Virus record (IMG/VR): IMGVR_UViG_3300022752_000462
Coordinates: 1 to 21,068 of that record
DNA length: 21,068 bases
Reading direction: 5' to 3' (one strand)
DNA from: a virus
Shown: piece after piece, positions 35 to 20,237 of the stretch
Layout of the letters: each line of letters opens with the position of its first letter
Numbering within the stretch: the first letter of the stretch is position 1
Translations under genes and position numbers: made by a program
Notes under the pieces: model-generated
What the model was told of the DNA's origin: nothing
The model's input: the letters and a program-made list of their open reading frames with translations, nothing else
Databases searched by the model: none

Positions 35-2203
35 ATGGCGAAACTAGGAATATTTACTGGAACCTCACCAAATGATAGTACTGGAGATACTTTATCTCAA
101 GGTGCTGCAAAGATTAATAGTAATTTTAGTGAAATTTATAATGCGATTGGAGATGGGACAAATATAACAAATAGTATTGCATTTGCAAGTACTGCTGGAA
201 TTGCAACAAATGTAATTGGTGGTATTGCTTCTGTTACTACTTTTCGTGCTTCTGGTATTTCCACAGTACTTTCAAGTAATCTTAAAATTAGAAATCCAGC
301 AAATACTTTTGAATATTCAATTATTGCATCTGCAATTACTGCAGATAGAACTATTACATTACCATTAATTACTGGTTCTGATACGTTTGCAACTTTGGGT
401 CTAGGACAATCTTTTTCTGGAATATCAACATTCAGTAACTTATTTACATTATCTCAAACTACTCAAAATATTGATTTAGGAAGCACCCAAACAACAGGAA
501 CTTGGACTGCTGGTGGAACTAATCAAACTGGTTCGATAACTCTTGGTGTATCCACTAATTCCCAAACAGTTAATATTGCAACTGGAATTGGGTCAACTGG
601 AACTACAAAGACAATAAACATTGGTACTGGCAGTAGTGGAATTACAAGAATTACTGTTGGTTCTGCATCCACTCTTGGTATTGGTACTTTTGTAATCAAT
701 CCTAGAATGAATGTTGGAATTGGTTCTACAATTCCATTATATACTCTTGATGTTTCTGGTGATATTCGTTCAACTGGAACAATTTATGGCAATCTTAATG
801 GTTCAATATCAGCTGCAACAACAGCAACAAATGTCATTGGTGGTATTGGTTCCATCACTAACTTAAATGTATCTGGAATTACAACTCTTGGAATAACAAC
901 AGCATCCCAACTTCAAGTAACTGGTATTACAACATTAGCATCATTAGGTGTTACTGGACTTACTACATCTTTAAATCTTAATATTTCTGGTATTTCTACC
1001 ATAGCATCATTAGGTGTTACTGGACTTACTACATCTTTAAATCTTAATGTTTTTGGTTCTGTTGGTATAGGAACTACAAATCCAGACAAAAAGTTTGTAG
1101 TTTATGGTTCTGGTGGAAATTTTGTTTCAGAATTTTATAATACAAATAATGCTCCAAATAACAATGGAGTTTATATTCGTACACTCAATACTAATTCTAC
1201 AACTTATGTATTGAGTGTTAATAGTGGAACTGATGGTTCAAATCAAATATTGTTAGTTAGAGCAGATGGCAATATTGGAGTAGGAACAACAAATCCAACA
1301 TCTTCACTATCTGTAAATGGTTCAACGGTGATTGGAACAGAAATATTAAATATGACTGGTTTATCCAGCACATTTACAACTGTTGGAAGTAATACTTTTA
1401 TTGTTCCTGCTGGTGTAACAAAAATTTCTGCTGTATTGATTGGTGGTGGTGGAGCAGGTGGTGGTGGTTCTATTGGTGGTTCTGGTGGAGCATCTGGTGG
1501 TCCTGGAGGTCAAGGTGGTGGTGGAGGAGGATTGAGATATGTTAATGATTTCCCAGTAACTCCAGGTCAAACTCTTACTGTTATTGTTGGTGCTGGTGGA
1601 AATGGAGGAACTGGTGCTGGAGGAGATGGTGGAGATAGTTCAATAACAGGAATTGCTACAGCATTTGGTGGAAAAGGTGGTGCAGCAAATAATACAGGAA
1701 CAGCAGTTGGTACTGGTGGTGCTGGTTCTGGTGGTTCTGGTGGAGCAACTGGAGGTTCTGGTGGAACTGCAACTTTAGTTTCTGGTGCTGGTGGAGGTGG
1801 TGCTGCTGGTTATAGTGGAAATGGAGGAACTGGTGGAAATGGGTCAGTAACTAATGGTGGAGATGCTGGATCTGGTGGTGCAGCAGGTGGTGGTGGTGCT
1901 CCGAGTAATTCTGGATCTGGTGGTGGAGGAGTTGGAGTATTGGGACAAGGAACTTCTGGATCATTATCAAATGGTGTTGGAAATGCTGGTTCTGGTGGAT
2001 CAAATGGTTCACTTGGAAATGCAAATGACGGTGCTACTGGTGGATTGTTTGGTGGTGGTGGAGGTGGTGCTGATGGTAATGTTGGTTCAGTTACTAGTGG
2101 CGGAAACGGAGCACAAGGTGTTGTGAGAATTATATGGTCTCCAAGTTCCAAATTCTCAAGATTATTCCCAACAAATCAGGTTGGAAACAATATAAATCAA
2201 TAA
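35..2203 (+). CDS. Tail fibre/adhesin with gp9/gp10-like N-terminus and polyglycine C-terminal domain
   Basis: A 722-residue virion protein, probably a fibre or adhesin attached to the baseplate. Residues 1-45 include STGDTLSQGAAKINSNFSEIY, close to the TGD...GG.KIN..F..IY start shared by T4 baseplate proteins gp9 and gp10, which suggests a baseplate-anchored N-terminus. Residues about 50-450 are Ser/Thr/Gly/Ile-rich beta repeats with three GIGTTNP-like motifs near residues 223, 342 and 413, common in phage fibres, and a 22-residue duplicated unit. Near residue 456, FIVPAGVTKISAVLIGGGG opens a polyglycine domain reaching about residue 705 and closing with GGNGAQGVVRIIW. This layout is known from phage adhesins with packed polyglycine helices. 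The last 20 residues look like a tail peptide. No peptidase S74 chaperone is present. The start is the first ATG after the late box; there is no clear Shine-Dalgarno sequence. Structural role is secure, receptor binding is inferred. Confidence 0.8.
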   Translation: MAKLGIFTGTSPNDSTGDTLSQGAAKINSNFSEIYNAIGDGTNITNSIAFASTAGIATNVIGGIASVTTFRASGISTVLSSNLKIRNPANTFEYSIIASAITADRTITLPLITGSDTFATLGLGQSFSGISTFSNLFTLSQTTQNIDLGSTQTTGTWTAGGTNQTGSITLGVSTNSQTVNIATGIGSTGTTKTINIGTGSSGITRITVGSASTLGIGTFVINPRMNVGIGSTIPLYTLDVSGDIRSTGTIYGNLNGSISAATTATNVIGGIGSITNLNVSGITTLGITTASQLQVTGITTLASLGVTGLTTSLNLNISGISTIASLGVTGLTTSLNLNVFGSVGIGTTNPDKKFVVYGSGGNFVSEFYNTNNAPNNNGVYIRTLNTNSTTYVLSVNSGTDGSNQILLVRADGNIGVGTTNPTSSLSVNGSTVIGTEILNMTGLSSTFTTVGSNTFIVPAGVTKISAVLIGGGGAGGGGSIGGSGGASGGPGGQGGGGGGLRYVNDFPVTPGQTLTVIVGAGGNGGTGAGGDGGDSSITGIATAFGGKGGAANNTGTAVGTGGAGSGGSGGATGGSGGTATLVSGAGGGGAAGYSGNGGTGGNGSVTNGGDAGSGGAAGGGGAPSNSGSGGGGVGVLGQGTSGSLSNGVGNAGSGGSNGSLGNANDGATGGLFGGGGGGADGNVGSVTSGGNGAQGVVRIIWSPSSKFSRLFPTNQVGNNINQ
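936..1048 (+). repeat. 47-bp exact direct repeat within fibre gene
   Basis: Bases 936-982 recur exactly at 1002-1048, a period of 66 bases or 22 codons. The repeat encodes ASLGVTGLTTSLNLN twice and keeps the reading frame, so gain or loss of a unit by recombination would lengthen or shorten the shaft without breaking the protein. Identity at third codon positions points to a recent duplication. Confidence 0.9.
1435..2125 (+). repeat. Glycine-codon-rich, G-skewed low-complexity tract
   Basis: This stretch is dominated by GGT and GGA codons, with short GGTGGTGGT runs, in a window that is otherwise strongly AT-rich. It encodes the polyglycine domain of the fibre protein. The runs are short (about four identical triplets at most) and interrupted by GCT, TCT and AAT codons. 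The complementary strand therefore reads as long proline-rich open frames that are not genes. Confidence 0.85.
2191..2198 (+). promoter_or_regulatory. Possible late promoter box (TATAAATC) inside the end of the preceding gene
   Basis: TATAAATC differs from the T4 late consensus only in its last base and ends 20 bases before the ATG at 2219, the same spacing as the boxes ahead of 9590 and 19422. It lies within the last codons of the 722-residue fibre gene (residues NINQ). It could equally be a chance match in AT-rich coding sequence. Confidence 0.4.
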
Positions 2204-2209
2204 GGGTAT

Positions 2210-2218
2210 TAAAGAAAA
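2210..2218 (+). promoter_or_regulatory. Purine-rich start context TAAAGAAAA abutting ATG
   Basis: The nine bases TAAAGAAAA directly precede the ATG at 2219. The identical nonamer directly precedes the ATG at 11153. It may act as a weak ribosome-binding or A-rich enhancer element, since no GGAG-type Shine-Dalgarno sequence is present at either start. Confidence 0.4.
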
Positions 2219-3364
2219 ATGGCAAACAACACAGGAACATTTTTTAACGTTAATGATAATGATGGAATACCTTTAGTTGGTGTTTCCACTGATGGTAAGG
2301 TGATGATTAATCACCTTTATGGAAATTGTTTGATTGGTTCCACATCAGTTACAGGAACCGCATCACAACCACTTCAAGTCACTGGTGGTGCTTATGTTTC
2401 TGGTAACCTTGGTATAGGAACCATAAATCCAACTGCAACTCTTGAAGTTGTTGGTAGTTTGAAAGTATCAGGAACAATTACTGGTACTGCTACAACAGCA
2501 ACTACTGCTTTTGGGTTCTCTACAACTGCTAGTATAAACACTTCTGGTATTATAACTGCTACTGGAGGTTTTGTAGGAGGTCTTACTGGTACAGCATCAA
2601 CTGCTAATAACGTAAGTTCTACTATTAATATAAACACTAGTGGAATTATAACTGCTACTGGAGGTTTTGTAGGAGGTCTTACTGGTACTGCATCCACAGC
2701 AACGGCAGCAGGAACTGCATATGGATTAACCGGAAGTCCTAATATCACTGTAGGAAACGTGACTGGTTCTGCAGCAACATTCACAAACAACTTGAATGTT
2801 GGTACTGCAATTACAATGTATAGTTCTACTGGTATTATCAGTGCCACCAAGTATTATGGTGATGGTTCCAGTTTATCTGGAATAGATGCAACAAGAATTG
2901 TTTCTGGATTATCAAGTGTAACTGTTGCAACTTCAAGTACCATTTCTGCCTATGTAAATGGTTCTAACATTTTTAATGTAACAGGAACTGGTGTTACGAT
3001 GACTTCTGGTAAGAGACTTGATGTTTCTTCTTATACAGAAAATGTAAATTTCTTGGGTTCAGTAAGTGGTAGTACTGTATTGGATGTTGGAACATATTCA
3101 GTTTTTGTTGCAGATATTTCTGGAACAACGTCAGTTACTTTCACATTAAGTGGAGCAGTTTCTGGAAGATTATCTTCTGCAACCTTAATTTTAAGATTTT
3201 CAGGAAGTGGATCCAGAAGTGTAAATTTAGCATTTAATCCAAAATATGTTGGGGGTGCTGGTCCAATATATTCTACAACAGCAGTCACGGATATTATTTC
3301 ATTCTTTACTGCGGATGCAGGAACAACCACATTTATATCTGTCGTAGGACAAGCTTTTTCATAA
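2219..3364 (+). CDS. Repeat-rich tail fibre protein
   Basis: A 381-residue probable fibre or baseplate appendage protein. After a short N-terminus (MANNTGTFFNVNDNDGIPLV), residues about 63-80 hold LGIGTINPTATLEVVGSL, the GIGT.NP..L.V.G motif of phage fibres. Two copies of SGIITATGGFVGGLTGTAST start near residues 109 and 141, each preceded by INT. Near residue 212, KYYGDGSSLSGIDATRIVSG is a motif met again and again in fibres of marine T4-like phages. Residues about 225-381 are beta-rich without detectable enzyme motifs and may form the distal tip. It lacks the polyglycine domain and the gp9/gp10-like start of its upstream neighbour. The next gene starts two bases after the stop, so the two are likely translated from one transcript. 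Function as a fibre is inferred from motifs; its position in the virion is unknown. Confidence 0.75.
   Translation: MANNTGTFFNVNDNDGIPLVGVSTDGKVMINHLYGNCLIGSTSVTGTASQPLQVTGGAYVSGNLGIGTINPTATLEVVGSLKVSGTITGTATTATTAFGFSTTASINTSGIITATGGFVGGLTGTASTANNVSSTININTSGIITATGGFVGGLTGTASTATAAGTAYGLTGSPNITVGNVTGSAATFTNNLNVGTAITMYSSTGIISATKYYGDGSSLSGIDATRIVSGLSSVTVATSSTISAYVNGSNIFNVTGTGVTMTSGKRLDVSSYTENVNFLGSVSGSTVLDVGTYSVFVADISGTTSVTFTLSGAVSGRLSSATLILRFSGSGSRSVNLAFNPKYVGGAGPIYSTTAVTDIISFFTADAGTTTFISVVGQAFS
2549..2688 (+). repeat. 44-bp exact direct repeat within second fibre gene
   Basis: Bases 2549-2592 recur exactly at 2645-2688, a period of 96 bases or 32 codons, encoding the repeated IITATGGFVGGLTGT segment. 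Similar flanking bases (ATAAACACT) extend the unit imperfectly upstream. The repeat is in frame and could change fibre length by recombination. Confidence 0.9.
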
Positions 3365-3366
3365 TT

Positions 3367-4509
3367 ATGTTTAATAAAGCAACATTATTTGGTGGATCTT
3401 TTACTAAGGTTTATACACCCACAATCACATCACCAACAGCAAGTCAACTTTTAAATACAAGAACACCAACAATTACATCAAGTGCTTTTTCGAAGTATGG
3501 TAATATAACTCATGCATCAACTGATTGGCAAGTTTCTGATTCTTCTGATTTTAATACAATTCGTTGGTTGTCAGTAAATGATTCAACAAATAAAATATCA
3601 ATCACTTCTACTGATTTAAAAGGTGGAAATCGTTACGTAAGAGTTAGACATAAGGCAAGTAATGGAAATTATAGTGATTGGTCTGACCCAATTTTATTTA
3701 CTATTCCAGTACAAACACCAGTGGTTTTATTTACAAGCAACCTTTCGTCAACACATAATCGAACAGCGGGAGATAGTTCGAGTTTTAGTGTTGATGTTGT
3801 AGATGCCGATAATACAAATGCCACTAATACGATTTCATATCAATGGTATTTGAGTACTGATGGTGGTAATAATTATTCTCCAATTTCTGGAAAAACAACT
3901 AATACTTTAGATCGTTATTCAACATTTTATCGTAGTGATAATGGACATAAAATTAAATGCAGAGTATCTATTACGAATTCTGTAGGTAGCAATTCTGCTG
4001 ATTCTGAGGTTTGTACTTTAACAGTTGCAAGAAATTATGATTGCAATAGTTCAACAGTAACGGGAACTCAAAGTTTTGGAAGTGGTTTGAAACCATCTAC
4101 GAATGGAAATGGAGATGAACAATGGTGGGAATGGTCTCCGGGGTATAGTGATATATGTTCTATTGATGGAAACTTAAGTAGCTTTAATGCTAAAGGTAGA
4201 TTTTGTAATTGGAATATGGAACTTGAATTAAGAATTACAAAATCTACTGGTGATGGAGGTAGAGTACATTGGGGGTCTCAACAAAAATCTGGTTCTCAAC
4301 AAAATTATCAAACTTTTGATAACGTTAAAGCAAATGGTGGAGTATGGAATCCAAATAATGATGGAACGCCAACTTATCGACTTATGGTAATTGACAATGG
4401 CACAAATTGTACAAATAATTCTTCGCAAGATATTGGTTGCGAATCTGGTGCTATAACTTTGAATTATTCTTACAAAAGAGCAAATCTTTATTTTGAAACA
4501 CGACCATAA
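3367..4509 (+). CDS. Virion surface protein with FN3-like and Ig-like domains and a Cys-rich C-terminal domain
   Basis: A 380-residue probable virion decoration or adhesin protein. Residues about 20-118 resemble a fibronectin-type domain, with TDWQVSDSSDF near 52-62 and YVRVRHKASNGNYSDWSD near 90-107. Residues about 119-218 look Ig-like, with the buried-Trp strand TISYQWYLSTDGG near 155 and HKIKCRVSITNSVGS near 195-209. Residues about 219-380 form an unrecognised domain containing WWEWSPGY, CNWNMELELRI and RVHWGSQQ. Seven cysteines (198, 216, 226, 264, 280, 348, 358) are far more than in neighbouring virion proteins. No signal peptide or membrane segment is visible. It starts two bases after the preceding stop and probably shares its transcript. 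Ig and FN3 domains on phages often mediate weak carbohydrate binding; that function is inferred here and no close family is recognised. Confidence 0.65.
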   Translation: MFNKATLFGGSFTKVYTPTITSPTASQLLNTRTPTITSSAFSKYGNITHASTDWQVSDSSDFNTIRWLSVNDSTNKISITSTDLKGGNRYVRVRHKASNGNYSDWSDPILFTIPVQTPVVLFTSNLSSTHNRTAGDSSSFSVDVVDADNTNATNTISYQWYLSTDGGNNYSPISGKTTNTLDRYSTFYRSDNGHKIKCRVSITNSVGSNSADSEVCTLTVARNYDCNSSTVTGTQSFGSGLKPSTNGNGDEQWWEWSPGYSDICSIDGNLSSFNAKGRFCNWNMELELRITKSTGDGGRVHWGSQQKSGSQQNYQTFDNVKANGGVWNPNNDGTPTYRLMVIDNGTNCTNNSSQDIGCESGAITLNYSYKRANLYFETRP

Positions 4510-4512
4510 ATA
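4505..4512 (+). promoter_or_regulatory. Putative late promoter box (CATAAATA) overlapping a stop codon
   Basis: CATAAATA includes the TAA stop (4507-4509) of the upstream gene, so the last codons and the promoter share bases. It precedes the ATG at 4553 by 40 bases, the longest leader in the window. The gap 4513-4552 also holds the palindrome ATTTTAAAAT (4512-4521) and two TCATTAAT copies 13 bases apart (4521-4528 and 4534-4541). Confidence 0.6.
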
Positions 4513-4552
4513 TTTTAAAATCATTAATATAATTCATTAATTTAGAGTAATA

Positions 4553-7500
4553 ATGCGAACAGTTCCAGGGTCAGGTGCAGTTCTTAAACCAGAATTTGAA
4601 CTACCGTTTTATTCTGTGTCAAAAATTTATGTAATCGATGGTGGTTCTGGATATGCTTCAACAAATCCACCAAAAATTACAATACAAGATACTGTAACTC
4701 CAGTGATAGAAGGAGTTTTCTATCCTGTAATTTCTGGTAGTTCTATTCAAAGTGTAAAGGTAATTAGTGGTGGATCTGGGTATTATCCAATATCATCAGA
4801 AAGTCAAACAAGAATTGGTATTGGTACAACATCTTTAGTTGAATCACAATTTGTGACTAAAGAATATGGTGCTGGAATTATAATGGGAGTAAGTGGTGGT
4901 ATTGGAAGTGCAATATTTGAGAATGGATATAATGTAGCAATCAGTACTACAATTACTGGTATATCAACTTTAATACCAAATGCGTCAAGTCGCATTTATG
5001 GATTTGGAAATCCAATTCCATCAACTACGTCTGGAATTGGAACTGGAGCAACATTTGAAGTTTGGATTACTTATGATGGTTCGGTAACTGGAAATCCAAT
5101 TTCAACATCTATTATTCTCAAAGATGGTGGAAGAGGATATGGAATAGGAAATACAGTTTCAATTGCTGGAACTTATCTTGGAGGAACAAATCCAACCAAT
5201 ACATTATCATTCAAAGTATCTAAAGTTTCTAGTACATCAATAGTATCGGCAGCAAATTCAACATATACTGGTATTGCTGGTTCTACAATAGTTGGTGTTG
5301 GTTCTGGTGCAAAATTTAATATATCAAGAGATTCTTTGGGAAAAATTAGTTCAGTTGAAATTGCAAATGGAGGAAGATATTATAATGTTGGAAGTCAAAC
5401 TGATGGATCTTTGACGGATATTATCAGTATTGCTGGAACATCTATTGGTGGTTCTACACCAGCAGATAATTTATATCTTTCACCAACACTTTTGGGAACT
5501 GATATTTTACCAAAAATTTTATATGTTGATAAGTTAGATGATAACCAATTTAAAGTATCTGGACTATCTACTTCTTTTGATTTGGATATTAAAAATTATG
5601 GAATTGGAACTCATTCATTTGCATATCCTGAACCAAATTCAAGTTCCTTAATTACGATTGATAATATCATTCAATCACCTTTATATAGAAGAGGAATTAC
5701 ATTATATCCATCAAAAGCAATTGGAATTGGAAATACAATTTACTTAAGATCTGGTATTTCATCATTAACATCTTTGGATGTTTTGATGATAGATTCCGAA
5801 TTAATGAAGGTCAGATCAGTTGGAATTGGTTCAACTAATAGTGTTATTGTAGATAGAGCATATTATGGGACAGTTGCTGCAGCACATACTGTTGGAGCAG
5901 CAGTTACTGTAATGAGAGGTGATTTTAATATTGTTAAAGATACAATTTATTTTACTGATCCACCATATGGAAAAATAGGACAAGAAAGTTTACAAGTAAA
6001 CTCATCATTTCAAGGAAGAATTTTTTCAAGAAGATTTGATCCAGGAAAACCATCAGATAAAAATTTAATTATTGATGATATTTCTAAAGATTTTATTGGA
6101 AAAACAATTTCTGTAGGAATTAAAACAGGAACTCTAAATTCTTCAACCAAAAATATAATTAGTGGAATTGATACAACATCTTTAAGTTTAGGAGATGTTT
6201 TAAATTTACAATATACCGAAAATCAATATATTATAAGAAATACAGTTATTCAATCTATAGGTGTTGGGTCAATTACCATTTCCCCAAATCATAATGTAAA
6301 TACTGGAATTGCTACAACAACATTCAATATTACAAATTTGAACTTTGTATTAAAATCAAATGGTGAAAGTATATCTGGATTATATTCTAACATCAACAGC
6401 AAATCAAGTATAAACAATAATCCATTTATTTTATTAAATAATGTTTCTCAAATATCTGATAGTGATTTTATTATTGATACTGAAGGAAATAATACTATTA
6501 AATTTGTAAGTGGTGTTCCAAATGCTGGAAAAATTGTTAGGGTTGCAATTACTACTGGATATGGTTATCAACCACTTGTAGGTGCTTCTGCAACAGTTTC
6601 TGTATCTGCTGCTGGCACAATATCAAATATTTATTTAACTGGTGCTGGAAGTGGTTATAGAACTGATCCAGTAATTAGTGTCGCATCCACAATTGGTAGT
6701 GGTGCTACGATTACTGCTTCAATTGGATCTGGAGGAACAATCACTTCATTGAGTATTATAAATCCAGGTTCTGGATATACAACTGCTGCAAAACCAATTA
6801 TCAAAATACCAATTCCATCAAATTATAGTAATCTTGGTGTTGCTTATGCTAATGGTTCTAGTGGTGTCGGAGAAGGAGCAAAGGTTTCTGTTATTGTAAG
6901 TAATGGGTCTAGTATTACTGGATTTACGTTAGAAGATCCTGGATATGGTTATAAAGTTGGTGAGGTATTAAAAGTCGTTGGTATTACTACAAATCCATCA
7001 GTTGGAGCAGGATTTAGTGAATTTAGAATGACAGTACAAGAAACATTTACAGACAAATTTAGTGGATTTTATCCAGGTCAATTTGTTAGGATTGATAGTC
7101 TTGCACCATATTTTACTGGGAAAAAACGTAAATTCATATTGACCTTTACATATCTTGGTACAACAGAAACTTTTTCAGTAAGAACAGATCCAAATTCGGA
7201 TTTAAAAGTTGGAAATAACTTTTTTGTTTTTATAAATGATATTTTACAAAAACCAGAAGAATCTTATAAAATAATTGGTTCACGAATAATTTTCAATGAA
7301 GCACCAAAACCAAATTCAAAATGTTTAATTTTATATTATAGAGGATCAGATTTAGATGTAGAACAAGTAGATCCACCAAAAACAATTAAAGAAGGTGATT
7401 CCATTCAAATTGGAGAAAATATATTAGATCCATATGATAGAGAACAATTTGAACGTGTTGTTAAAAAAATTGTTTCTTTTGATAGTTTTGATACATTTCC

Positions 7501-9559
7501 TTACGATAGTATTGGAATTAATACTGACCCCAAAAAAGCAAGACCCCTCAAATGGACCAAACAAACACGAGATAGAGTTATTAATGGTGTTTTGTATTCA
7601 AAAGGAAGACCAGATTTAAAATCAAGAAATACACCAACAACAAGAATTATCAAATCGGTATCAAAAAATGATAATATCATATATGTAAATAATGCTTTTC
7701 CATTATTTGTAGAAGATATTGGAAGAGGATTAACAGAAGAATTGAGAGATATTATTATTCTCGACAATAAAACAGTTGACTCTGCATCTGGAACTACAGT
7801 TATTTCTGCTGCATCAACTGTTTCAAATATAACAATTACAAATTCTGGTTCTGGTTATCAAGTTGCAAATCCAACGGTTGCAATTTCTTCGGCATTTATA
7901 ACAAGAAAGGATCCAATTTATAATTGGAAAGGGACTTCTGGAATAACTACAAATTATGAAATAAAATCAATTACTTATGGAAATATTTTTGTTGGTGTTG
8001 GAACAAGCAGTCTTTTGGTTAAAAGTATAGATGGAACTTCTTGGTCGGATAGCAGTATTGGATATGGAAATTCAATAACATTCAATTCTGTTGCATTTGC
8101 AGGAACAAACACATATGTTGCTGTGGGTCAAACTGGAAAAATCATAACAGCAACTGCAATTGGAACTTCAGTATCTTCTTGGATTGAATGTAAATTGACT
8201 AATAGAACTATTGAATTTGTTAGTGACATCGTAACTGATACACCTAGCACATATAATGGTGAATTTAAAGATATTTCTTATTCTTCATCAAAAAATACTT
8301 TTGTTGTTGTTGGTAAAATTTCAAATTATAACCAAATATCTCCAATTTTTACTGCAGTTGGAATTGGATCTACACAATTTTTTGAAAAAAATAAAACAAA
8401 TATAAAAAATCTAAATTCTATTGCAAATAATAATAATATTTTCATTATAGTTGGTGATGATGGAACAATTTATTATTCATTTGATACTGAAAATTGGTCT
8501 GTTGTTGGGGATTTATCAAAACCAACTACTCAAAAATTGAATAAAATTATTTGGGATGGGACAAACTTTGTTGCAGTTGGAAATAATGCAGCAATTATAA
8601 CATCTCAAAATGGAATAAATTGGGTTTTGCAACCTGGTGTAAACATTACAAATAATTTAACAAATATAAACTACTATGATGGTGTTTATGTTGTATTGGA
8701 TGATAATGGCAATTTATATTATTCATTAGATTTATCAAATTGGGAACAAAGATCAACAAATCAATCAAATGCTATTAAAGATTTAATTTTTGTTCCATCA
8801 CTAAGTTATGAAGGAAGATATATTGTAGTTGGTTCTGCTGCAACAATTATGTATTCAGAACCAATTTATAATAGAGCAACAGCAACATCTTCAACCACAA
8901 ACGGTATTGTAACTTCGGTAACAATTACAAATGGTGGATTTGGTTATTCCCAAACAAATGTTCCTCCTGTTATTTTTGAAAGTCCAAAACCAAATAGAGA
9001 GAAGGTTTATTCAATAAAAGCAAAAGGTGATTTTGGAACTATAATTGGTATTAATACAATAGGAATTGGAGCATCTTCTTTAGAATTTAAATTAAAATCA
9101 GAAACTTATGATAATGCCAATCTTGGTATTGGATATTCATCACTTGATAAGTTTGGAGTAACATATAGTCAATTGGAACAAGGTGATTACTTTGTAATTT
9201 TTGATAGTAATGTAACTTCTGGATATGCTTTAACAGGAATAACAACTACTACTGGAATTAGAGTTGGAACAGCAACTTCATTTATTGATGGTCTCTATAG
9301 AGTAGAAAATGTTACAACTCCATCATCTGGCATAGTAACTGTCAGATGTGATTTTGTTCCTGTTAATGGTGGTATAGATAAAGCATTAAATCTTGGAATC
9401 AATACAACTGGATTTTATGGAAGATATACTTGGAGTAAAATATATGATTATCAAAATAGAGCAAGAGAAAATCCAAAAGACTTTGTTGTAAATACAAATG
9501 ATGGATTGTCTGGATTATCCACAGCAGCAGAAATTTATAGAACTCGTGGTTTAATTTAG
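4553..9559 (+). CDS. Large virion structural protein (gp7 position) with GxGY repeats and beta-propeller
   Basis: A 1668-residue structural protein immediately upstream of gp8, where T4 has wedge gene 7 (1032 residues); I see no clear sequence match to gp7, so equivalence is positional. GxGY modules (for example VIDGGSGYAS near 30, TGAGSGYRTDP near 695, TNSGSGYQVANP near 1095, TNGGFGYSQTN near 1458) recur about ten times. Residues about 382-457 form an IDSELMKV...RAYYGT...H module also found in the 2479-residue protein. Residues about 825-940 (VFINDILQKPEESYKI, then IIFNEAPKPNSKCLILYYRG) resemble a motif common in phage tail fibres. Residues about 1125-1440 contain seven evenly spaced (G/N)xFVxVG strands with Asp-box-like SxDGxxW turns, indicating a beta-propeller. 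The C-terminus is YGRYTWSKIYDYQNRARENP with RTRGLI. A gp7-like wedge, arm or peripheral attachment role is inference. Confidence 0.75.
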   Translation: MRTVPGSGAVLKPEFELPFYSVSKIYVIDGGSGYASTNPPKITIQDTVTPVIEGVFYPVISGSSIQSVKVISGGSGYYPISSESQTRIGIGTTSLVESQFVTKEYGAGIIMGVSGGIGSAIFENGYNVAISTTITGISTLIPNASSRIYGFGNPIPSTTSGIGTGATFEVWITYDGSVTGNPISTSIILKDGGRGYGIGNTVSIAGTYLGGTNPTNTLSFKVSKVSSTSIVSAANSTYTGIAGSTIVGVGSGAKFNISRDSLGKISSVEIANGGRYYNVGSQTDGSLTDIISIAGTSIGGSTPADNLYLSPTLLGTDILPKILYVDKLDDNQFKVSGLSTSFDLDIKNYGIGTHSFAYPEPNSSSLITIDNIIQSPLYRRGITLYPSKAIGIGNTIYLRSGISSLTSLDVLMIDSELMKVRSVGIGSTNSVIVDRAYYGTVAAAHTVGAAVTVMRGDFNIVKDTIYFTDPPYGKIGQESLQVNSSFQGRIFSRRFDPGKPSDKNLIIDDISKDFIGKTISVGIKTGTLNSSTKNIISGIDTTSLSLGDVLNLQYTENQYIIRNTVIQSIGVGSITISPNHNVNTGIATTTFNITNLNFVLKSNGESISGLYSNINSKSSINNNPFILLNNVSQISDSDFIIDTEGNNTIKFVSGVPNAGKIVRVAITTGYGYQPLVGASATVSVSAAGTISNIYLTGAGSGYRTDPVISVASTIGSGATITASIGSGGTITSLSIINPGSGYTTAAKPIIKIPIPSNYSNLGVAYANGSSGVGEGAKVSVIVSNGSSITGFTLEDPGYGYKVGEVLKVVGITTNPSVGAGFSEFRMTVQETFTDKFSGFYPGQFVRIDSLAPYFTGKKRKFILTFTYLGTTETFSVRTDPNSDLKVGNNFFVFINDILQKPEESYKIIGSRIIFNEAPKPNSKCLILYYRGSDLDVEQVDPPKTIKEGDSIQIGENILDPYDREQFERVVKKIVSFDSFDTFPYDSIGINTDPKKARPLKWTKQTRDRVINGVLYSKGRPDLKSRNTPTTRIIKSVSKNDNIIYVNNAFPLFVEDIGRGLTEELRDIIILDNKTVDSASGTTVISAASTVSNITITNSGSGYQVANPTVAISSAFITRKDPIYNWKGTSGITTNYEIKSITYGNIFVGVGTSSLLVKSIDGTSWSDSSIGYGNSITFNSVAFAGTNTYVAVGQTGKIITATAIGTSVSSWIECKLTNRTIEFVSDIVTDTPSTYNGEFKDISYSSSKNTFVVVGKISNYNQISPIFTAVGIGSTQFFEKNKTNIKNLNSIANNNNIFIIVGDDGTIYYSFDTENWSVVGDLSKPTTQKLNKIIWDGTNFVAVGNNAAIITSQNGINWVLQPGVNITNNLTNINYYDGVYVVLDDNGNLYYSLDLSNWEQRSTNQSNAIKDLIFVPSLSYEGRYIVVGSAATIMYSEPIYNRATATSSTTNGIVTSVTITNGGFGYSQTNVPPVIFESPKPNREKVYSIKAKGDFGTIIGINTIGIGASSLEFKLKSETYDNANLGIGYSSLDKFGVTYSQLEQGDYFVIFDSNVTSGYALTGITTTTGIRVGTATSFIDGLYRVENVTTPSSGIVTVRCDFVPVNGGIDKALNLGINTTGFYGRYTWSKIYDYQNRARENPKDFVVNTNDGLSGLSTAAEIYRTRGLI

Positions 9560-9560
9560 T

Positions 9561-9568
9561 AATAAATA
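9561..9568 (+). promoter_or_regulatory. Putative late promoter box (AATAAATA) before gp8
   Basis: AATAAATA begins two bases after the TAG stop (9557-9559) and ends 21 bases before the gp8 ATG at 9590. Spacing matches the boxes before 35 and 19422. AATAAATA also occurs by chance inside coding sequence (10984-10991, 13432-13439), so the match alone is weak; the intergenic position and spacing are the main support. Confidence 0.55.
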
Positions 9569-9589
9569 GAAAAAAAGTATACGATTAAA

Positions 9590-11146
9590 ATGTCTGCAAT
9601 TATATCAGATCAATTTAGGATAATGAATGCCGAGACTTTCATAAAAAGTTTTGTTGGTGTTGGAAGTACAGCAAATACTTATTATACTTTTATAGGGCAA
9701 CCAAATGCTTTAAATTCTCAAGCAAATGGTTCATCATCTTGGGGTGATGGGTTGCCTCCATTGGATGGATTTAAGGAAGAGAATGAAATAAAAGAAACTA
9801 TCATTTCTATGAAAAAAGTCACTACAAGTGACGTAAGAAGAATGATAAGAAAAAAAACTTGGGAAAGTGGTTCTACTTATGAAATGTATAGACATGATTA
9901 TACAATTTATAATTTATCTCCAATCACTAATTCTTCTTCATTATATGATGCAAATTATTATGTAATAAATGATGATTTGAGAGTTTATATTTGTTTGCAA
10001 AATGGAGCAGATCCAGAAAATCCAAAAGGAAAACCATCAGTAGATCAACCAGATTTTGTAGATTTGGAACCAAGACCTGCTGGAACAAGTGGTGATGGAT
10101 ATATTTGGAAATATCTTTATACCATTAAACCATCTGAAATTGTAAAATTTGATTCTATTGAATTTATTCCTGTTCCAGAAGATTGGGGAACAGTTGGAGA
10201 AAGCATTTCGACTAAAAATAATGCTATTAATGGAAAAGTACAAATTTTAACTATAACTAATAGAGGTTCTAGTTATAATCCAATTTCAAAAACATTTACA
10301 AATATTCCAATTCTTGGTGATGGGTCTGGAGGAAAAGCAACTGTTGTTGTCGATTCTTTTGGAAAAGTTTCTGATGCTTATGTAACTGATGGTGGAATTG
10401 GTTACACTAAAGGAATTATTCAATTTGAACCAGGAGCACCAGGAATTCCAGACACATTAACAAATGCTGGAACAATTGCTAGTTTTGATGTAATTATTCC
10501 ACCAAAAGGAGGTCATGGATATGATATTTATAGAGAACTTGGTGCTTATAGAGTTTTAGTTTATTCTCGTTATAATACTGATGAAACAAATCCAGACACT
10601 ATTATTGGAAATGATTTTGCTAGAATTGGAATTATCAAAAATCCAACAAAAATAACAAGTGATGTTGAACCACTTGCAATAGCAGAAGTAAGTGCTTTAA
10701 AAGCATTAAAATTGACTGGTGTTGCTACTACATTAACAACTTATGCAGTTGATTCAACAATTACTCAAACAATTAGTACTGGGACTATTGCAATTGGATT
10801 TGTTGCTTCATGGAACAATGTAACAGGTGTTTTGAAATACTATCAACCAGTTGGATTGGCAACAGTTGGTGTTGGATATAAAATTAATGATTTTAGTTCT
10901 ACTGGTTCATCTTTGGTAATAAATGGTGCTGCCTCTGGAACACCATTAAATATTGATACTTCATTTACTGGTATTAGTACAGTAATAAATAATAGGACAT
11001 ATCAACTGGGAAGCAACTTTGTTGCTGGTATTGCATCTGCAGAATATAATAAAAAGTCTGGTGAAATCATTTATATTGATAACAGACCACCAATACCAAG
11101 AGCAGCAAGTCAAAAAGAAGATATCAAAATCGTTTTGGAGTTCTAA
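9590..11146 (+). CDS. gp8: Baseplate wedge protein gp8
   Basis: Homolog of T4 gp8, which dimerises within each of the six baseplate wedges and binds gp7, gp10 and gp6 during wedge assembly. Key matches: SDQFRIMNAETFIKSF at the N-terminus, GDGYIWKYLYTIKPSE near residue 168 (T4 GDGYVWEYLFEIPP), DFARIGIIKNP near 345 (T4 ITNP strand) and the C-terminal GEIIYIDNRPPIPRA near 491 followed by EDIKIVLEF (T4 GEMIYMENRPPI and EINILFTF). At 518 residues it is well over T4's 334. The extra length lies in two places: about 205-345, containing GxGY modules near 222 and 265, and about 355-485, a Thr/Ile-rich beta insert. It follows its own late box and is separated by six bases from the giant downstream gene, so both are probably made together. 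Identification is firm; the role of the inserts is unknown. Confidence 0.92.
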   Translation: MSAIISDQFRIMNAETFIKSFVGVGSTANTYYTFIGQPNALNSQANGSSSWGDGLPPLDGFKEENEIKETIISMKKVTTSDVRRMIRKKTWESGSTYEMYRHDYTIYNLSPITNSSSLYDANYYVINDDLRVYICLQNGADPENPKGKPSVDQPDFVDLEPRPAGTSGDGYIWKYLYTIKPSEIVKFDSIEFIPVPEDWGTVGESISTKNNAINGKVQILTITNRGSSYNPISKTFTNIPILGDGSGGKATVVVDSFGKVSDAYVTDGGIGYTKGIIQFEPGAPGIPDTLTNAGTIASFDVIIPPKGGHGYDIYRELGAYRVLVYSRYNTDETNPDTIIGNDFARIGIIKNPTKITSDVEPLAIAEVSALKALKLTGVATTLTTYAVDSTITQTISTGTIAIGFVASWNNVTGVLKYYQPVGLATVGVGYKINDFSSTGSSLVINGAASGTPLNIDTSFTGISTVINNRTYQLGSNFVAGIASAEYNKKSGEIIYIDNRPPIPRAASQKEDIKIVLEF

Positions 11147-11152
11147 AGAAAA
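11144..11152 (+). promoter_or_regulatory. Purine-rich start context TAAAGAAAA abutting ATG
   Basis: Identical to the nonamer before 2219. Here its first three bases are the gp8 stop codon (11144-11146), so termination of gp8 and initiation of the next gene are nine bases apart. This favours translational coupling and replaces a standard Shine-Dalgarno sequence. Confidence 0.4.
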
Positions 11153-14100
11153 ATGCCACAGAATACTAACCTAAACGTATCTCCATATTTTGATGACTTT
11201 GATGCAAAAAAGGGTTATCAAAGAGTTTTATTTAAACCAGGAACTCCAATCCAAGCAAGAGAACTGACAACTCTTCAATCAATTTTACAAAATCAAGTTG
11301 AAAAGTTTGGAAAACACTTCTTTAAAGAAGGTTCCATGGTTATTCCAGGTCAAATTGGATACGACTCGGAATATAGTTACGTACAAATTGATGATACGCA
11401 TTTGGGAATTCCAGTATCAGCATATATTGATAAATTTGTAGGCAAAAGCATAAAAGGGGAAACAAGCGGTGTTACTGCGGTAGTAGAAAATTATATTACA
11501 AATACAGAATCAGAAAAAAATAATTATACATTATTTGTAAAATATAAGAGTTCTAGTGATACAAATTTTACAAATAAAACTTTTGTTGATGGTGAAAATC
11601 TAATTTCATTAGAAAATGTAGATTACACATTATCTTCAATTAGGGCAAATACATCCTTTGCAACTTCCATTATTTCTGGTTCTGTTGGCAAAGGATCTGC
11701 TGCAAAAATTGAAGAAGGTATATATTTTATTCGTGGATTTTTTATTACTGTTTCAAAGCAAGTAGCAATTTTAGATCAATACACAAATACTCCAACATAT
11801 CGTATTGGTCTTTTGATTGATGAAGAAATTGCAGTAGCATCAAATAATTATAATGATTTATTTGATAACGCTCAAGGATTTTCAAATTATGCTGCCCCAG
11901 GTGCTGATAGATTAAAAATTTCCACAACTTTAATCAAAAAAGAAATTGATGATTTTAATGATCAAGATTTTGTAGAATTGATGAGAGTTGAAAATGGTAG
12001 ATTAACTAAATTTGTAGATAAAACTGATTATAATTTAATTAGGGACGAATTGGCAAGGAGAACTTATGATGAGTCTGGTGATTATTATGTAAAACCTTTT
12101 GATATTTCAGTAAAAGAATCATTAAATGATAGAGTTGGAAATAATGGAGTTTATTATTCAAATCAAAAAACAAAACAAGGAAATACTCCATCAAAAGATC
12201 TTGCTTGTATTTCAATAAGTCCAGGAAAGGCTTATGTTCGTGGATATGAGATTGAAACCATTAGTAATACTATTGTAGATATAGAAAAACCAAGAACAAC
12301 AGAACGATCAGAAAATGCTTCAATTCCATTTAATGTTGGAAGACAAATATTATTAAACAATGTTTATGGTTCTATTAGTGTTGGTTTAACAACACAAGTA
12401 AGTCTTTATGATACTAGAACAGCAACACCAGGATCTTCTTCTGGAACAAAAATTGGAGTTGCTAGACTTTATGACTTAAAATTAAAAAATGTAGCATATT
12501 CAAATGCTTCCACTCAATTTGAAAGTTCACTCTATGATATTCAGACTTATACAACGTTAACAATTAATACTGCTTTAACACAAACTACACCAGCATATAT
12601 TCAAGGAAAAAATAGTGGTGCTAAAGGATATTTGGTTAGTAATGTATCATCATCTACTACTTTAACCTTATACCAAGTTTCTGGATCATTTATAGCAAAC
12701 GAGCAAATAAAAATAAATGGTTTAGATTTTTCTCGCACAATTACATCAGTAAAAGATTATTCTTTAAACGATGTTCATCAGATATATTCTCCTGGTTTTA
12801 CTGCTGATCCAATTTTATCAAAAACATTATCTGTTGCAGAACCAGGAACTCAATTTACCATTACATCTGGCGGTACAGTAACAACTTCAAATCAAAACTT
12901 TTATGTCGGGATTAATGTGGGAGATATTGTATCATATACAAAACAAGGTGAAAGTGTACCTACTTATAATAAAGTTTCTGTTGTTAGTGGATCTTTAAAG
13001 TCTTTAACTGTTGTAGCAACAACTTCTGTTTCTGGTATTTGTTCTGGTTCTCTTCCAGGTTCAACAATTACTGTAAATGATTTTAAAGTAGTATCTTTAA
13101 ATGTTTTAAATACAAAAAATGCATTTTTATATGCACTTTTAAATAACTCAAAAGTTTCAAATCTTGATTTAACAGGATCTGATGTAGTATTCAAAAAATC
13201 TTATAATATTACTGCTGGTGAATTTAGTGATGGTGCTTGGAGTTCGACATTAGAAACAGATACGTCATTAACATTTGAACCATTCGATGAAGAAGATTAC
13301 AATTTAACCTTTGCTGATGGAACTGTAGCAGTATTGGATAATCAAAAATTGGTTCCAAGTGGAAGAACTATATCAATTCAAAATATTACTACAAATTCAG
13401 GTGCAGCAATATTGACTGCTACTCTTAAAAAAATAAATACAAAAACTCGCAAAAAAACGTATAATAGATGCTCTAGTCTAACTATTAATAAAACTTCTTC
13501 TGGTATTTCTACCTCTATAAGTGGATTAAGTACTAGTACTGTTTATGGTTTAAGAATTGAGGATGATGAAATTTCATTAAATGTATGTGATGTGGAATCA
13601 GTTATTGGAATTTTTGAGTCATCTTCTTCTTCAACTCCAACATTACCATCAATCACAATAATCGGATTGAATTCAAATATTTTAAATTCAATTAAAGGTG
13701 AAAAAATAGTTGGCAAAGATACTGGAGCAGTTGCAAGTTTAGTCTCAAATGATGGGACAAATACAATAAAATTTGTTTATTTAAATGAAAATATTTTTTC
13801 TATTGGTGAAACAGTTACGTTTGAAGAATCTCAAATTTCTGGAATTGTTGACTCAATTCAAATTGGAGATAAAAATATTAGAACCAATTTTATTTTAGAT
13901 GAAGGACAGAGATCAGAATATCTTGATTTTTCAAGAATTATCAGAAAACCACAAATTGCTGCACCAACAAAACAAATAACAATCATTTATAATAATTATA
14001 CTATAGATTCATCTGATACTGGTGATTTTGTTGGAGTAAATTCTTATGATAAAGATAGATATGATAATGATATATCATCGGTAGATGGAATATCTTTGAC

Positions 14101-17100
14101 TGATATTATCGATTTAAGACCAAGAGTTGCTCCATATTCTGGTACAAAATCACCATTTGAGTATGAATCAAGAACATTTACTGGGCAAAATTCTACACAA
14201 AATATCTTTGCACAGAGTAAAGCAATAAATTTATCTTATGATTATTATTTACCAAGAATTGATAGATTATTTTTAACAAAAGAAGGATCATTCATTGTAA
14301 ATAAAGGCATCCCATCACTTAAACCAAAAGTTCCAAATAATTTAGATTCTTGTTTGGAAATAGCAACAATTCGTTTACCTGCTTATTTAAATAATTCAAA
14401 AGATGCATCAACATCTTTAGTGCAACACAAACGATATACAATGAAAGATATTTCCAGATTGGAAGATAGACTTTCTAATGTTGAATATTATACATCACTG
14501 TCTTTGCTTGAAACGGATACTCAAAATTTAACAATAAGAGATAGCACAACAAAATTAGATAGATTTAAATGTGGTTTTTTTGTTGATAATTTTAAATCTT
14601 ATAATGGTGGAGAAATAACAAATCTAAACTATAAATCAAGTATTGATACTGCTAATGGATTATTAAGACCAACCCATTATACAACTTCTATAGACTTACT
14701 TTTAGGGTCTGAAGCAGTTATTGGAATCGGTCAAACATCAAATCCAGATGCCGATTTACGTTTTGTTAGTGATTTGGGTTCTCCAAATATAAAAAAAGTT
14801 GGAGATGTTATATGTTTAAATTATTCAGAAGTTGAATATACAAAAAATCAATTTGCTACAAGAAGTGAAAATGTAAATCCATTTAATGTAATTAATTGGA
14901 TTGGTTCAATTCAATTAAATCCATCGAGTGATACTTGGATTGATACAAAAAGATCTGAAAGAACTTATGATATTGAAGGTTCTTATAATTCAAAAATGCA
15001 AGAACTTGGTGTAGATAGCAATACTGGACTTTCACCAATTGATTGGAATTCTTGGGAAAATAACTGGACTGGAACTAATATTTCTAATGGACCATCTTTG
15101 GGAAAAATAGAAACTGGAAATACATCTTCTACAGTAACAAATGATCCAGGCAGTGGTAGAAGATTAGTAACTGACACAACGACAACTGTAACTGATTTTA
15201 TAGAATTTAATGATCAAACAGTAACGACAACAACAAATCAATCCAGACAAGGAATTCAGTTTGGTGTTACTGAAAGATTTGATTCCACCAATCTTGGAGA
15301 TAAAATTATTTCTAGAGAAATTATAAAAACGATGAGATCTAGAAATATTGAAATTATTGCTAAAAGATTAAAACCATCATCAAGAGTTTATGCATTTTTT
15401 GATAATGTTGATGTGACTTCATATGTTGTACCAAAATTAATTGAAGTAACAATGTCCAGTGGAACTTTTACTGCTGGAGAAACAGTAGTTGGATCTTTGG
15501 GTTCAAAAACTATTAGATTTAGACTTGCAACACAAAATCACAAATATGGCCCATATAATTCACCAGAACAAACATTTTCAATAAATCCATATTTACCAGA
15601 AAATTCTTTATCCGATTCATATTCATCAACAACTACAGTATTAAATGTAGATACTGCAAGTTTAGAGTTACAAGCATCATCTGGTTTTTATGGTAGTATT
15701 GCAAAAAATATGCAATTGGTTGGGCAAACCAGTAAAGCAGTCGCAACTATTTCTGATTTACGATTAATCGCAGATGGATCTGGTGTTTTTATTGGTTCAT
15801 TATTTATTCCCGATCCAACAGTTCCATCGACACCATCGTTTAGAACTGGAACAAAAACTTTTGTTTTGACATCAAGTTCAACAAATTCTACAGTAGTTAC
15901 TTCAGATGAAACAACAGCAGAGGTTAATTTTACTTCTGCTGGAACTTTGGATAATGTTGAAAATTCTACACTTAGAATTAGAAATGCAAATGTTGAAAGA
16001 ATTCCACAAACAGATTCTCAAACACTTACTTCATCTACAACTAATTTAGTTTCATCAAATACTTCCACAACAACAACATCAGAATCAAGCAGATGGGTAG
16101 ACCCATTGGCACAATCATTTGAAGTTGCAGATAATAATGGAGTTTATATTACAAAATGTGATATTTTCTTTAAAACAAAAGATACTAAAGGAATTCCAGT
16201 AACACTTCAAATCAGAACGATGCAAACTGGTCTTCCAACGCAAACAATTTTACCATTTGCGGAAGTAACATTAGATCCAAAAGATGTTAAAACATCCGAA
16301 GATGGTACTGTTGCAACTACATTTACTTTCCCCTCCCCAGTTTATCTTGAAAAAACTGGTTCTGGATATTCAATTGTATTGGTTTCTTCTTCTGATTCTT
16401 ATAACGTATGGATTTCAAGAATGGGAGAAACAGATGTATCAACTGTAAATAAACCAGATTCGCAAAAAATTATTGTTTCTAAACAACCAACTCTTGGAGC
16501 ATTATTCAAATCACAAAATGGAGCAACCTGGACTCCATCGGATTTGGAAGATTTGAAGTTTACTTTATATAGAGCAGACTTTGTAACTTCACCAGCATCA
16601 TTTAGATTCTACAATCCAGACTTGAATATTGGCAATAATCAAATTGTAACATTAAGAAAAAATCCATTAAATGCATATTCAAATTCAGCATTAATTGGTT
16701 TAGGTAAGAGTTTATCTTCTTCCGAACAAACTTCATTGGTTATTGGAAATACAATTAGTCAATCATCTAATACTAACTTTACTTCAAATCTTAAATCTCT
16801 TGTTGGTGCAGTTGGAATTGGTTCGACATTAACATTATCAAATGTTGGGTCTGGATTTACAAGTGGAGCAACAGTATATTCAAATATAAGTTTAATCTCA
16901 TTAACAGGATTCGGTCAAAATGCAAAGGTGAATCTTTCTGTTTCTTCTGGTGTAGCAGTTGCTGCAACTATTACTGACGGTGGTTCTGGATATGCTGCTG
17001 GTGATACATTGACTGTAAGTTCTACGGATACAAATAATCTTGGGAAAAATCTTATTTTAACTATTCCAAATAATGTTGGAATTATTTCGGCAGTTAATTC

Positions 17101-18592: not shown

Positions 18593-18789
18593 TACCAGTA
18601 GAAGGACACAAAGGTTTATATCGTGATGAAAAATCAAATGCAATTGTAAATTGTAATGATTATGAATATCAAGAATATTTGAGAGCCAAAAACTCATCAC
18701 TAAATGAAAAAACTGAAATTGAAAATTTAAAAACTGAATTAACAGAAATAAAATCATTACTATTAAAACTCTTAGAAAACAAATCCTAA
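18589..18789 (+). CDS. Small conserved coiled-coil protein, function unknown
   Basis: A 66-residue protein whose ATG overlaps the stop of the giant upstream gene (ATGA, 18589-18592), a layout that usually couples translation and keeps products in proportion. The N-terminus MIPVEGHKGLYRDEKSNAIV resembles a small hypothetical protein that I recall at this spot in marine T4-like phages. Residues about 38-65 (EKTEIENLKTELTEIKSLLL and on) have a leucine/isoleucine heptad pattern typical of a short coiled coil. No signal peptide or membrane segment is visible. It could be a chaperone or linker for the giant protein, since many phage fibre genes are followed by a small helper, but nothing in the sequence proves that. 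Confidence 0.75.
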   Translation: MIPVEGHKGLYRDEKSNAIVNCNDYEYQEYLRAKNSSLNEKTEIENLKTELTEIKSLLLKLLENKS

Positions 18790-18792
18790 ATA
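18785..18792 (+). promoter_or_regulatory. Degenerate late-box candidate (CCTAAATA) in short gap
   Basis: CCTAAATA overlaps the TAA stop at 18787-18789 as the CATAAATA box does at 4505, and lies 30 bases before the ATG at 18823, but matches only six of eight late-promoter bases. The same bases form the left arm of a weak hairpin, CCTAA-ATATA-TTAGG (18785-18799). Either reading is tentative. Confidence 0.25.
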
Positions 18793-18822
18793 TATTAGGA
18801 AAGATTTTATCTAGTTCTCATA

Positions 18823-19161
18823 ATGGCAATATATGTAGCTAATATAACAATTCCAGGAGGTGCTGATTTTCAGCAAACATTTTTTCTTGAATCGACAGCA
18901 AATACTCCATTGGATTTGACTGGATATACTGGATATGCAAAATTAAAAAAATCACCAGCATCATTAAATACAGCAGCTACGTTTGCAGTTTCCTTTCCCA
19001 GTCCAATTTCTGGAAGAGTTAAAATATCTTTAGGTTCAACAATTACAGCATCATTAAGACCAGGAAGATATTGTTATGACATATTATTAGATAATGGAAC
19101 GGCAAAGACAAGAGTTGTTGAAGGGAGTGCATTAGTTACTGCTGGAATTACCACTGCATAA
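18823..19161 (+). CDS. Small beta-rich virion protein resembling BppU N-terminal domain
   Basis: A 112-residue protein, probably a structural component. The pattern ITIPGGADFQQTFFLES, then NTPLDLTGYTGYAKLKKS, then RPGRYCYDILLDNGTAKTRV with EGSALVTAGIT recalls the N-terminal domain of phage baseplate upper protein BppU and related small beta-sandwich proteins (start with a 'gdd..f.l.l', then 'DLTG', then 'Y.YD....g....v..G...V'). That similarity is a judgement from memory. No signal peptide or transmembrane segment is present. It follows a 33-base gap and is five bases ahead of the 75-residue gene, so the pair is likely cotranscribed. The location just before gp13 is where T4 encodes fibritin, but this protein has no long coiled coil and is not a fibritin. 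Confidence 0.7.
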   Translation: MAIYVANITIPGGADFQQTFFLESTANTPLDLTGYTGYAKLKKSPASLNTAATFAVSFPSPISGRVKISLGSTITASLRPGRYCYDILLDNGTAKTRVVEGSALVTAGITTA

Positions 19162-19166
19162 AAACC

Positions 19167-19394
19167 ATGTCAGACATTAGAGTAAGAACCAATTCGGACA
19201 ATTTAATAAAAGTAAGACTTGGTGCGGATAATGCAAACAGAGTAGTTTCTGCTGTTGCAAATTTAAAAATGAATCTTACTGATTTAAATGACATTAACGC
19301 TCCTTCTGGAATACCAAACAACTCTGTACTTGTCTACAATTCATCAACAGAACAATGGAACCCATATCCATTTATTGATGGCGGTACATACTGA
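19167..19394 (+). CDS. Small putative virion protein, function unknown
   Basis: A 75-residue protein. The N-terminal half (RVRTNSDNLIKVRLGADNAN and RVVSA) looks like a short beta unit; the second half has LTDLNDINAPSGIPNNSVLV followed by YNSSTEQWNPYPF. This 'L.D.ND...P.N..VLVYN..T.QW.P' pattern is a common short motif in tail fibres and head decoration proteins of marine phages, which suggests a virion component. It begins five bases after the preceding stop and its own TGA overlaps the late box ahead of gp13. There is no visible Shine-Dalgarno sequence. A specific role cannot be assigned. Confidence 0.65.
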   Translation: MSDIRVRTNSDNLIKVRLGADNANRVVSAVANLKMNLTDLNDINAPSGIPNNSVLVYNSSTEQWNPYPFIDGGTY

Positions 19395-19400
19395 TAAATA
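19393..19400 (+). promoter_or_regulatory. Putative late promoter box (GATAAATA) overlapping a stop codon, before gp13
   Basis: GATAAATA shares two bases with the TGA stop at 19392-19394 and ends 21 bases before the gp13 ATG. The start site that follows reads ATTAAATAATGGC, identical over 13 bases to the sequence around the ATG at 35. It would drive the neck genes as a separate late unit. Confidence 0.6.
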
Positions 19401-19421
19401 ATTAGAGTTTTCAATTAAATA

Positions 19422-20237
19422 ATGGCTCAACCATCAACTCGTCAGGGATTAATTGATTACTGTTTAAGAAAACTTGGATATCCTGTTTTAGAAATCAATG
19501 TCGATGACGACCAAATTGACGATTTGGTGGATGATGCTATTCAATTTTTTAATGAAAGGCATTACGATGGTGCAGCAAGAGTATATTTAAAGCATAAACT
19601 TCTTTCTGGAGAAAGAGAGACTATAAGAACAGATAAGACAACATCTACAACAAATTCTCCCGTTGGAGTAACAACAGTTACTTATGAAGAAACAAATAAT
19701 TTTATTCAACTTCCAGATACAGTTATTGGAGTAAATAACGTATTTAAATCAGATGCAAATACCATATCATCTGGTTTGTTTAATATTAAATATCAAATAT
19801 TTTTGAATGATTTGTATTATTATGGTGCTCTTGATTTGTTAAATTATGCAATGGTGAAGACCCATTTAGAAGATATTAGTAGAATTATAACTCCAGACGT
19901 TCAATTGAGATTCAATAAAAAACAACATAGATTATATTTGGATATTGATTGGGCAATGGTAAATGAAAATAGTTATATTATTGTTGATTGTATTCGAATT
20001 GTAGACCCATCAGACTTTTCGGCAATATATAATGATTGGTGGTTGAAAAGATATTTAACAGCAATCATTAAAAGACAATGGGGACAAAATTTAATTAAAT
20101 TTAATGGAGTTCAACTTCCTGGTGGAATTACGATGAATGGTGAAAGAATATTAAATGACGCAATTAGAGAAATTGAAGAACTTGAAAGAGAACTTAAGAC
20201 AGAATACGAATTACCTCCAATGGATATGATAGGATAA
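19422..20237 (+). CDS. gp13: Neck protein gp13
   Basis: Homolog of T4 gp13, which with gp14 closes the portal after DNA packaging and makes the head competent to bind the tail. The N-terminus MAQPSTRQGLIDYCLRKLGY with VLEINVDDDQIDDLVDDAIQ and FFNERHYDGA is strongly characteristic of gp13 in T4-like phages. NDWWLKRYLTAIIKRQWGQN followed by LIKFNGVQLPGGITMNGERI near residues 205-245 is the second conserved block, and the protein ends in a charged helix with ELPPMDMIG. At 271 residues it is slightly shorter than T4 gp13 (309). The only start consistent with homology is the ATG at 19422. Its last base is shared with the gp14 ATG (TAATG), so the two neck proteins are translationally linked, fitting their joint assembly. 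Confidence 0.95.
   Translation: MAQPSTRQGLIDYCLRKLGYPVLEINVDDDQIDDLVDDAIQFFNERHYDGAARVYLKHKLLSGERETIRTDKTTSTTNSPVGVTTVTYEETNNFIQLPDTVIGVNNVFKSDANTISSGLFNIKYQIFLNDLYYYGALDLLNYAMVKTHLEDISRIITPDVQLRFNKKQHRLYLDIDWAMVNENSYIIVDCIRIVDPSDFSAIYNDWWLKRYLTAIIKRQWGQNLIKFNGVQLPGGITMNGERILNDAIREIEELERELKTEYELPPMDMIG

Follow-up and report, generated by a model that had tools for sequence, protein, structure and literature searches.

Beta-propellers are an already known kind of baseplate domain. In phage phi11, Gp45 carries a five-bladed propeller with a GlcNAc-sized cavity and has been proposed as a receptor-binding protein, and in phiKZ, gp131C forms a seven-bladed baseplate propeller for which receptor binding has been speculated (PMC4901313). 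In T4, gp7 contacts gp8, gp9, gp10, and gp6 (PMC3004832), and in the seven-bladed photosystem II assembly factor Ycf48, a conserved Arg patch binds D1 (PMC10403576). Large cyanophage gp7 proteins (3000-4400 residues) occur commonly in water and are mostly unexplained beyond their name; a propeller placed within them was not found described in the openly accessible part of the literature. The window analyzed here is a stretch of 21,068 nucleotides from IMG/VR record IMGVR_UViG_3300022752_000462; the virus has cyanobacteria of the ocean or a lake as its host, and the hosts of its named relatives are cyanobacteria.

A gp7-family protein beside gp8

The protein under study and the elements that frame its propeller are the following:

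4553-9559, + strand: 1668-aa baseplate wedge protein, putatively the C-terminal half of a split cyanophage gp7, directly 5' of gp8, matching phrog_2885
7100-7822, + strand: conserved gp7 core, used as propeller-independent bait and as tree input (alignments A4 and A5)
7781-7891, + strand: GxGY module 5' of the propeller (residues ~1077-1113), from the sequence and from model strands (residues 640-1668)
8873-8983, + strand: GxGY module 3' of the propeller (residues ~1441-1477), from the sequence and from strands in the models
9590-11146, + strand: gp8 baseplate wedge protein (PF09215, E 2.7e-12; phrog_438, E 5.5e-158; BLASTP to T4 gp8, E 2e-07)

The 1668-aa protein matches the phrog_2885 profile (baseplate wedge subunit) with E 1.1e-158, the best stretch being positions 3545-4079 of 4179, and belongs to this family by its match to the C-terminal part of the profile together with the adjoining gp8; tblastn searches with it matched gp7 of S-SSM7 and others. 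Similarity between the 1668-aa protein and T4 gp7 is not detectable (hhalign probability 0.1%; BLASTP E 1.6). T4 gp7 residues 730-758 match phrog_2885 near the N-terminus of the profile, and the stretch 727-757 matches an ORF of 2781-2816 aa in the records of the window's nearest relatives. In three near-relative contigs, two to four ORFs, partly related to the 722-aa and 381-aa proteins of the window, lie between the ~2790-aa ORF and the downstream propeller-bearing ORF, and in contig L054 both halves of gp7 are fused in one 4379-aa ORF. Since the T4-gp7 motif resides in a separate upstream ORF in the relatives and both halves form a single ORF in L054, the window protein is, by sequence comparison, most likely the C-terminal portion of a gp7 whose gene has been split, with fibre-like genes occupying the space between the two parts; the upstream portion falls outside the window. 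The wedge gene 7 position named in the original prediction is therefore most likely filled by one half of gp7, and not by a whole gene-7 product. The propeller is also present in the L054 lineage, which has a continuous gp7 and no fibre cassette, and is therefore not tied to that cassette.

Split gene 7 recurs in the window's lineage (L315 710-17552; L316, reverse complement, 2031-19904; L318 721-19904; L317 644-13783), and the interrupting fibre-like ORFs vary between relatives. Within the window, the first 87 residues of the 722-aa protein (35-2203) match phrog_677 (baseplate wedge tail fibre connector), and its C-terminal part is glycine-rich. Contigs L020 (1-10722) and L021 (3208-10686) hold gp7-like proteins with the propeller despite the labels "large exoprotein" and "YHYH domain-containing protein", and in S-SCSM1 a 2OG-Fe(II) oxygenase gene (L122 5613-6164) lies directly 3' of gp7, before the annotated baseplate wedge genes.

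Repeats, blades, and predicted fold

The earlier sequence reading of seven FVxVG-type strands and four Asp-box-like turns ending in Trp (S-x-[DN]-x-x-x-W) is confirmed, each being present once in the ORF at 4553-9559. The strand motifs start at residues 1143, 1186, 1248, 1295, 1338, 1378, and 1422, the later of the positions first given being 1-3 residues too low, and the B strands are spaced by 42, 62, 47, 42, 40, and 44 residues, with the gap of 62 due to a long variable insert in blade 2. Both patterns lie far above chance: the propeller region has 7 occurrences of the strand pattern, where 2000 shuffles average 0.07 and never exceed 2, and 4 of the W-turn, where they average 0.12; the remainder of the 1668-aa protein contains the strand pattern once and the W-turn never. 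The usual Asp box is S-x-D-x-G-x-x-W; turns of the SIDGTSW type (S-x-D-G-x-x-W) are one residue short of it, and the usual spacing occurs in one blade each of S-CAM9 (SSDNGLTW) and DSL-LC03 (SIDGGAVW). When single blades were held out, the profile of the other six scored blades 1, 2, 4, 5, and 7 above all of 2000 shuffles, and the weakest blades, 3 and 6, were equalled by very few. The original span of 7920-8870 was right; including the N-terminal closing strand, the domain covers about 7904-8872 (residues ~1118-1440):

7904-7942, + strand: N-terminal strand with D1120 and W1125, probably completing blade 7 (DSSP strands near 1120-1129; conservation)
7952-8074, + strand: blade 1 (1134-1174; model strands, held-out profile)
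8075-8251, + strand: blade 2 (1175-1233), with the long variable insert (model strands, held-out profile)
8252-8404, + strand: blade 3 (1234-1284; model strands, held-out profile, 2 of 2000 shuffles as high)
8405-8530, + strand: blade 4 (1285-1326; model strands, held-out profile)
8531-8653, + strand: blade 5 (1327-1367; model strands, held-out profile)
8654-8776, + strand: blade 6 (1368-1408; model strands, held-out profile, 1 of 2000 shuffles as high)
8777-8872, + strand: blade 7 (1409-1440), three strands, with a fourth probably from the N-terminal segment (model strands, held-out profile)

An AlphaFold model of residues 1094-1480, computed from an alignment (A2) of 53 sequences comprising the window and IMG/VR relatives, reached a pLDDT of 92.6 and a pTM of 0.89, and its DSSP string follows an A-B-C-D strand rhythm across seven blades. 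Among solved structures, the top Foldseek match in the PDB is the seven-bladed, D1 peptide-bound Ycf48 5ojr_D (E 1.6e-10, TM by target 0.74); the seven-bladed designed protein v13WRAP-T reaches a TM by target of 0.77 versus 0.57-0.61 for the eight-bladed Tako8, and the best viral model is gp7 of S-SSM7 (E 2.5e-35). Sequence searches of the PDB with the domain and its profile returned nothing relevant, and matches came from fold comparison alone. The structure prediction and Foldseek comparison that had been proposed as a check confirm residues ~1118-1440, at the level of the model, as a closed seven-bladed Asp-box/Ycf48-type beta-propeller, and this reading stands because neither open stacked sandwiches nor missing periodic blades were found. 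The wording "sialidase- or YCF48-like" is correct for the Asp-box/Ycf48-type fold, and "sialidase-like" applies at the fold level only. The ring is probably closed, as judged from the fold matches, the DSSP string, and the N-terminal W; D1120 and W1125 are invariant in the 53 rows, W or F occupies the W1125 position in 4 of 5 divergent rows, and from DSSP and conservation we infer that this segment closes blade 7. For a larger model (residues 640-1668), the best 50 Foldseek matches listed were mostly propellers, so that this search is uninformative on the rest of gp7.

Distribution and inheritance of the propeller

The propeller is found in the isolates S-SSM7/S-SSM6a, S-SCSM2R, Sf-FS3, S-CAM9, S-8S53/55/56, and DSL-LC03, and by eye in DSL-LC02. 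It is absent from S-SM2, Bellamy, S-SCSM1, S-B05, SynMITS9220M01, P-TIM68, S-CAM7, S-T4, and S-SRM01, none of which is matched by the propeller-only profile and in which the GxGY modules adjoin or are missing. The insertion between two GxGY modules is borne out, and some related phages have the insert while others do not. To keep the choice of loci independent of the propeller, two contig sets were collected by searching with the gp7 core, and set 1 also includes L151-L153, which came from scanning with the gp7 core of the window itself; each search comprised the best 80 matches, and the counts are not population frequencies. Among the matches listed, 56 of 77 complete tails in set 1 carry the propeller and extend 566-637 aa beyond the core, the other 21 lack it and extend 163-435 aa, and in set 2 (the S-SM2 side) it is present in 0 of 77. 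The lengths of the 154 full tails form two separate groups, with one 435-aa tail without a match between them, and the propeller has been gained or lost as a single block of ~300 aa, all or nothing. Presence was called with the propeller-only profile; a profile extending into the GxGY modules on either side scored tails of ~250-350 aa as positive and was set aside.

Presence and absence also follow descent. A quick tree of 100 gp7 cores requires two label changes versus ~32 for shuffled labels, none of the core clusters at 80% identity is mixed for the propeller, and the two most similar cores that differ in their label share 50% identity. Two changes are likewise needed on a gp8 tree with 75 rows, most of which were collected through the propeller. 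Since the gp7-core tree needs only these two changes, the propeller is, on the evidence of the sequences, an old lineage trait and not a swapped module, and its clean presence or absence is a marker dividing Kyanoviridae lineages. Across divergence down to ~29% identity (domain and flanks), the full seven-blade size is kept.

Proposed role and comparison with known systems

From the predicted fold, the boundaries, the distribution, the vertical inheritance, and the lack of conserved catalytic residues, the simplest reading is that the propeller in the C-terminal half of the split gp7 acts as a peripheral contact platform of the baseplate and not as an enzyme, a putative holder of a fibre, a wedge neighbor, or the host, to which we give a probability of about 0.6. 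The domain would be a rigid, solvent-exposed ring on the outer edge of all six baseplate wedges, and its partner would more likely be a protein (such as a fibre, a fibre connector, or a neighboring wedge part) than a cleaved sugar. Its position in the virion is deduced from the order of the genes and from where gp7 sits in T4, synteny and annotation being used because no similarity of the propeller half to T4 gp7 was detected, and exposure and binding are likewise proposals. If one gp7 is present per wedge, as in T4, the virion would carry six rings. A tentative history, somewhat short of even odds, is that an old T4-like cyanophage lineage gained the whole propeller in gp7 and has retained it as an additional ring for docking or adhesion, and that a fibre cassette split gene 7 in part of the lineage, leaving the propeller half as a separate wedge protein. 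As a conserved and confidently predicted domain, the propeller offers a testable handle on the role of the extra mass of gp7.

A host-surface (glycan) binding domain that aids attachment of the baseplate to the cyanobacterial envelope is an unlikely alternative. Baseplate propellers have been proposed as receptor-binding sites in phi11 Gp45 and, by speculation, in phiKZ gp131C (PMC4901313), and the domain evolves faster than the adjoining parts of gp7 (dN/dS among 11 near relatives of 0.36 versus 0.17-0.21 for residues 320-1090 and 1470-1668). A ratio of 0.36 is still purifying, however, host-range domains are usually swapped and the even vertical inheritance (two changes in 100 rows) argues against an often-exchanged host-range module, and no family-wide conserved set of polar surface residues marks a sugar pocket. 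Being faster than its neighbors and well below 1, the rate fits exposure and relaxed constraint alike and does not distinguish them; taken with the variation, which falls mostly outside the A and B strands, it is consistent with exposure and some freedom, and it offers positive evidence neither for an arms race with a receptor nor for docking. The N-terminal 320 residues (4553-5512) match the propeller in evolutionary rate (dN/dS 0.39) and contain many indels.

A little less credible still is an inert structural spacer that binds nothing in particular and is tolerated in the linker between the GxGY modules. With its two ends near each other, a closed propeller is well suited to being placed in a linker; entire gp7 lineages do without the domain, and the conserved polar sites, few of which persist in divergent rows, chiefly serve the fold (S and W of the Asp box, Y and N of the blades). 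An inert insertion accords poorly, however, with the full seven-blade size kept over a large divergence and with tail lengths that fall into two separate groups with a single 435-aa tail between them.

That the domain is a captured copy of Ycf48, the photosystem II assembly factor of the host, is very improbable, although Ycf48 is the best solved fold match, 10 of 14 members give a weak PSII_BNR match, and the named relatives infect cyanobacteria. The PF14870 (PSII_BNR) score is 25.4 bits for the domain and 21.5 for the whole protein, below the curated cut-off of 27; Ycf48 structures align at 13-16% identity, below the 23-39% reached in the best segments by propeller relatives on bacterial contigs (Clostridia, Paenibacillus, Opitutales, and others), a rough comparison only, as the methods differ; and the Arg patch is absent, since among three Arg in the window's propeller a single position, R1400, is conserved in A2 and is K or V in 3 of 5 divergent rows. 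An active sialidase or other glycoside hydrolase, to which the Asp-box-like turns and the propeller fold might point, is the least probable reading, as no catalytic set (Arg triad, Tyr/Glu pair, acidic residues) is conserved and R1400, the only Arg conserved in A2, is replaced in three of the five divergent rows, in agreement with the original prediction, which had recognized no catalytic residues. With neither the Arg triad and acidic set nor the Arg patch conserved, an enzymatic role and a Ycf48 function both appear unlikely. In the Actinomycetia phage DSL-LC01, a free-standing propeller-type protein (L130 7860-8732) near collagen-like genes is labelled "photosynthesis system II assembly factor", although it is probably a protein of the virion or of a fibre and not a photosystem II factor.

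Set beside the described systems, the locus shares with T4 the gene order 7-8, and a counterpart of T4 gp7 residues 727-757 is present in the upstream part of cyanophage gp7, whereas the propeller-carrying half has no detectable similarity to T4 gp7. Ycf48 (PF14870; PDB 5ojr, 2xbg) has the same seven blades of the BNR/Asp-box type, but it is a free assembly factor, whereas the phage domain is distant in sequence, lacks the Arg patch, and is embedded in a baseplate protein. Gp45 of phi11 also places a propeller on a host-adhesion device, although with five blades, as a trimer, and in a Staphylococcus siphophage (PMC4901313). The C-terminal domain of phiKZ gp131 (PDB 4GBF) is seven-bladed and belongs to a baseplate-peripheral protein of a contractile phage (PMC4901313), but it comes from another phage, sits at the C-terminus instead of being inserted between GxGY modules, and is absent among the 50 best Foldseek matches listed. 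In gp7 of S-SSM7 (ADO98169.1, E3SL21), the propeller is 35% identical, forms part of a 3001-aa protein, and is not annotated as a propeller, yet it is the same domain in the same place beside gp8.
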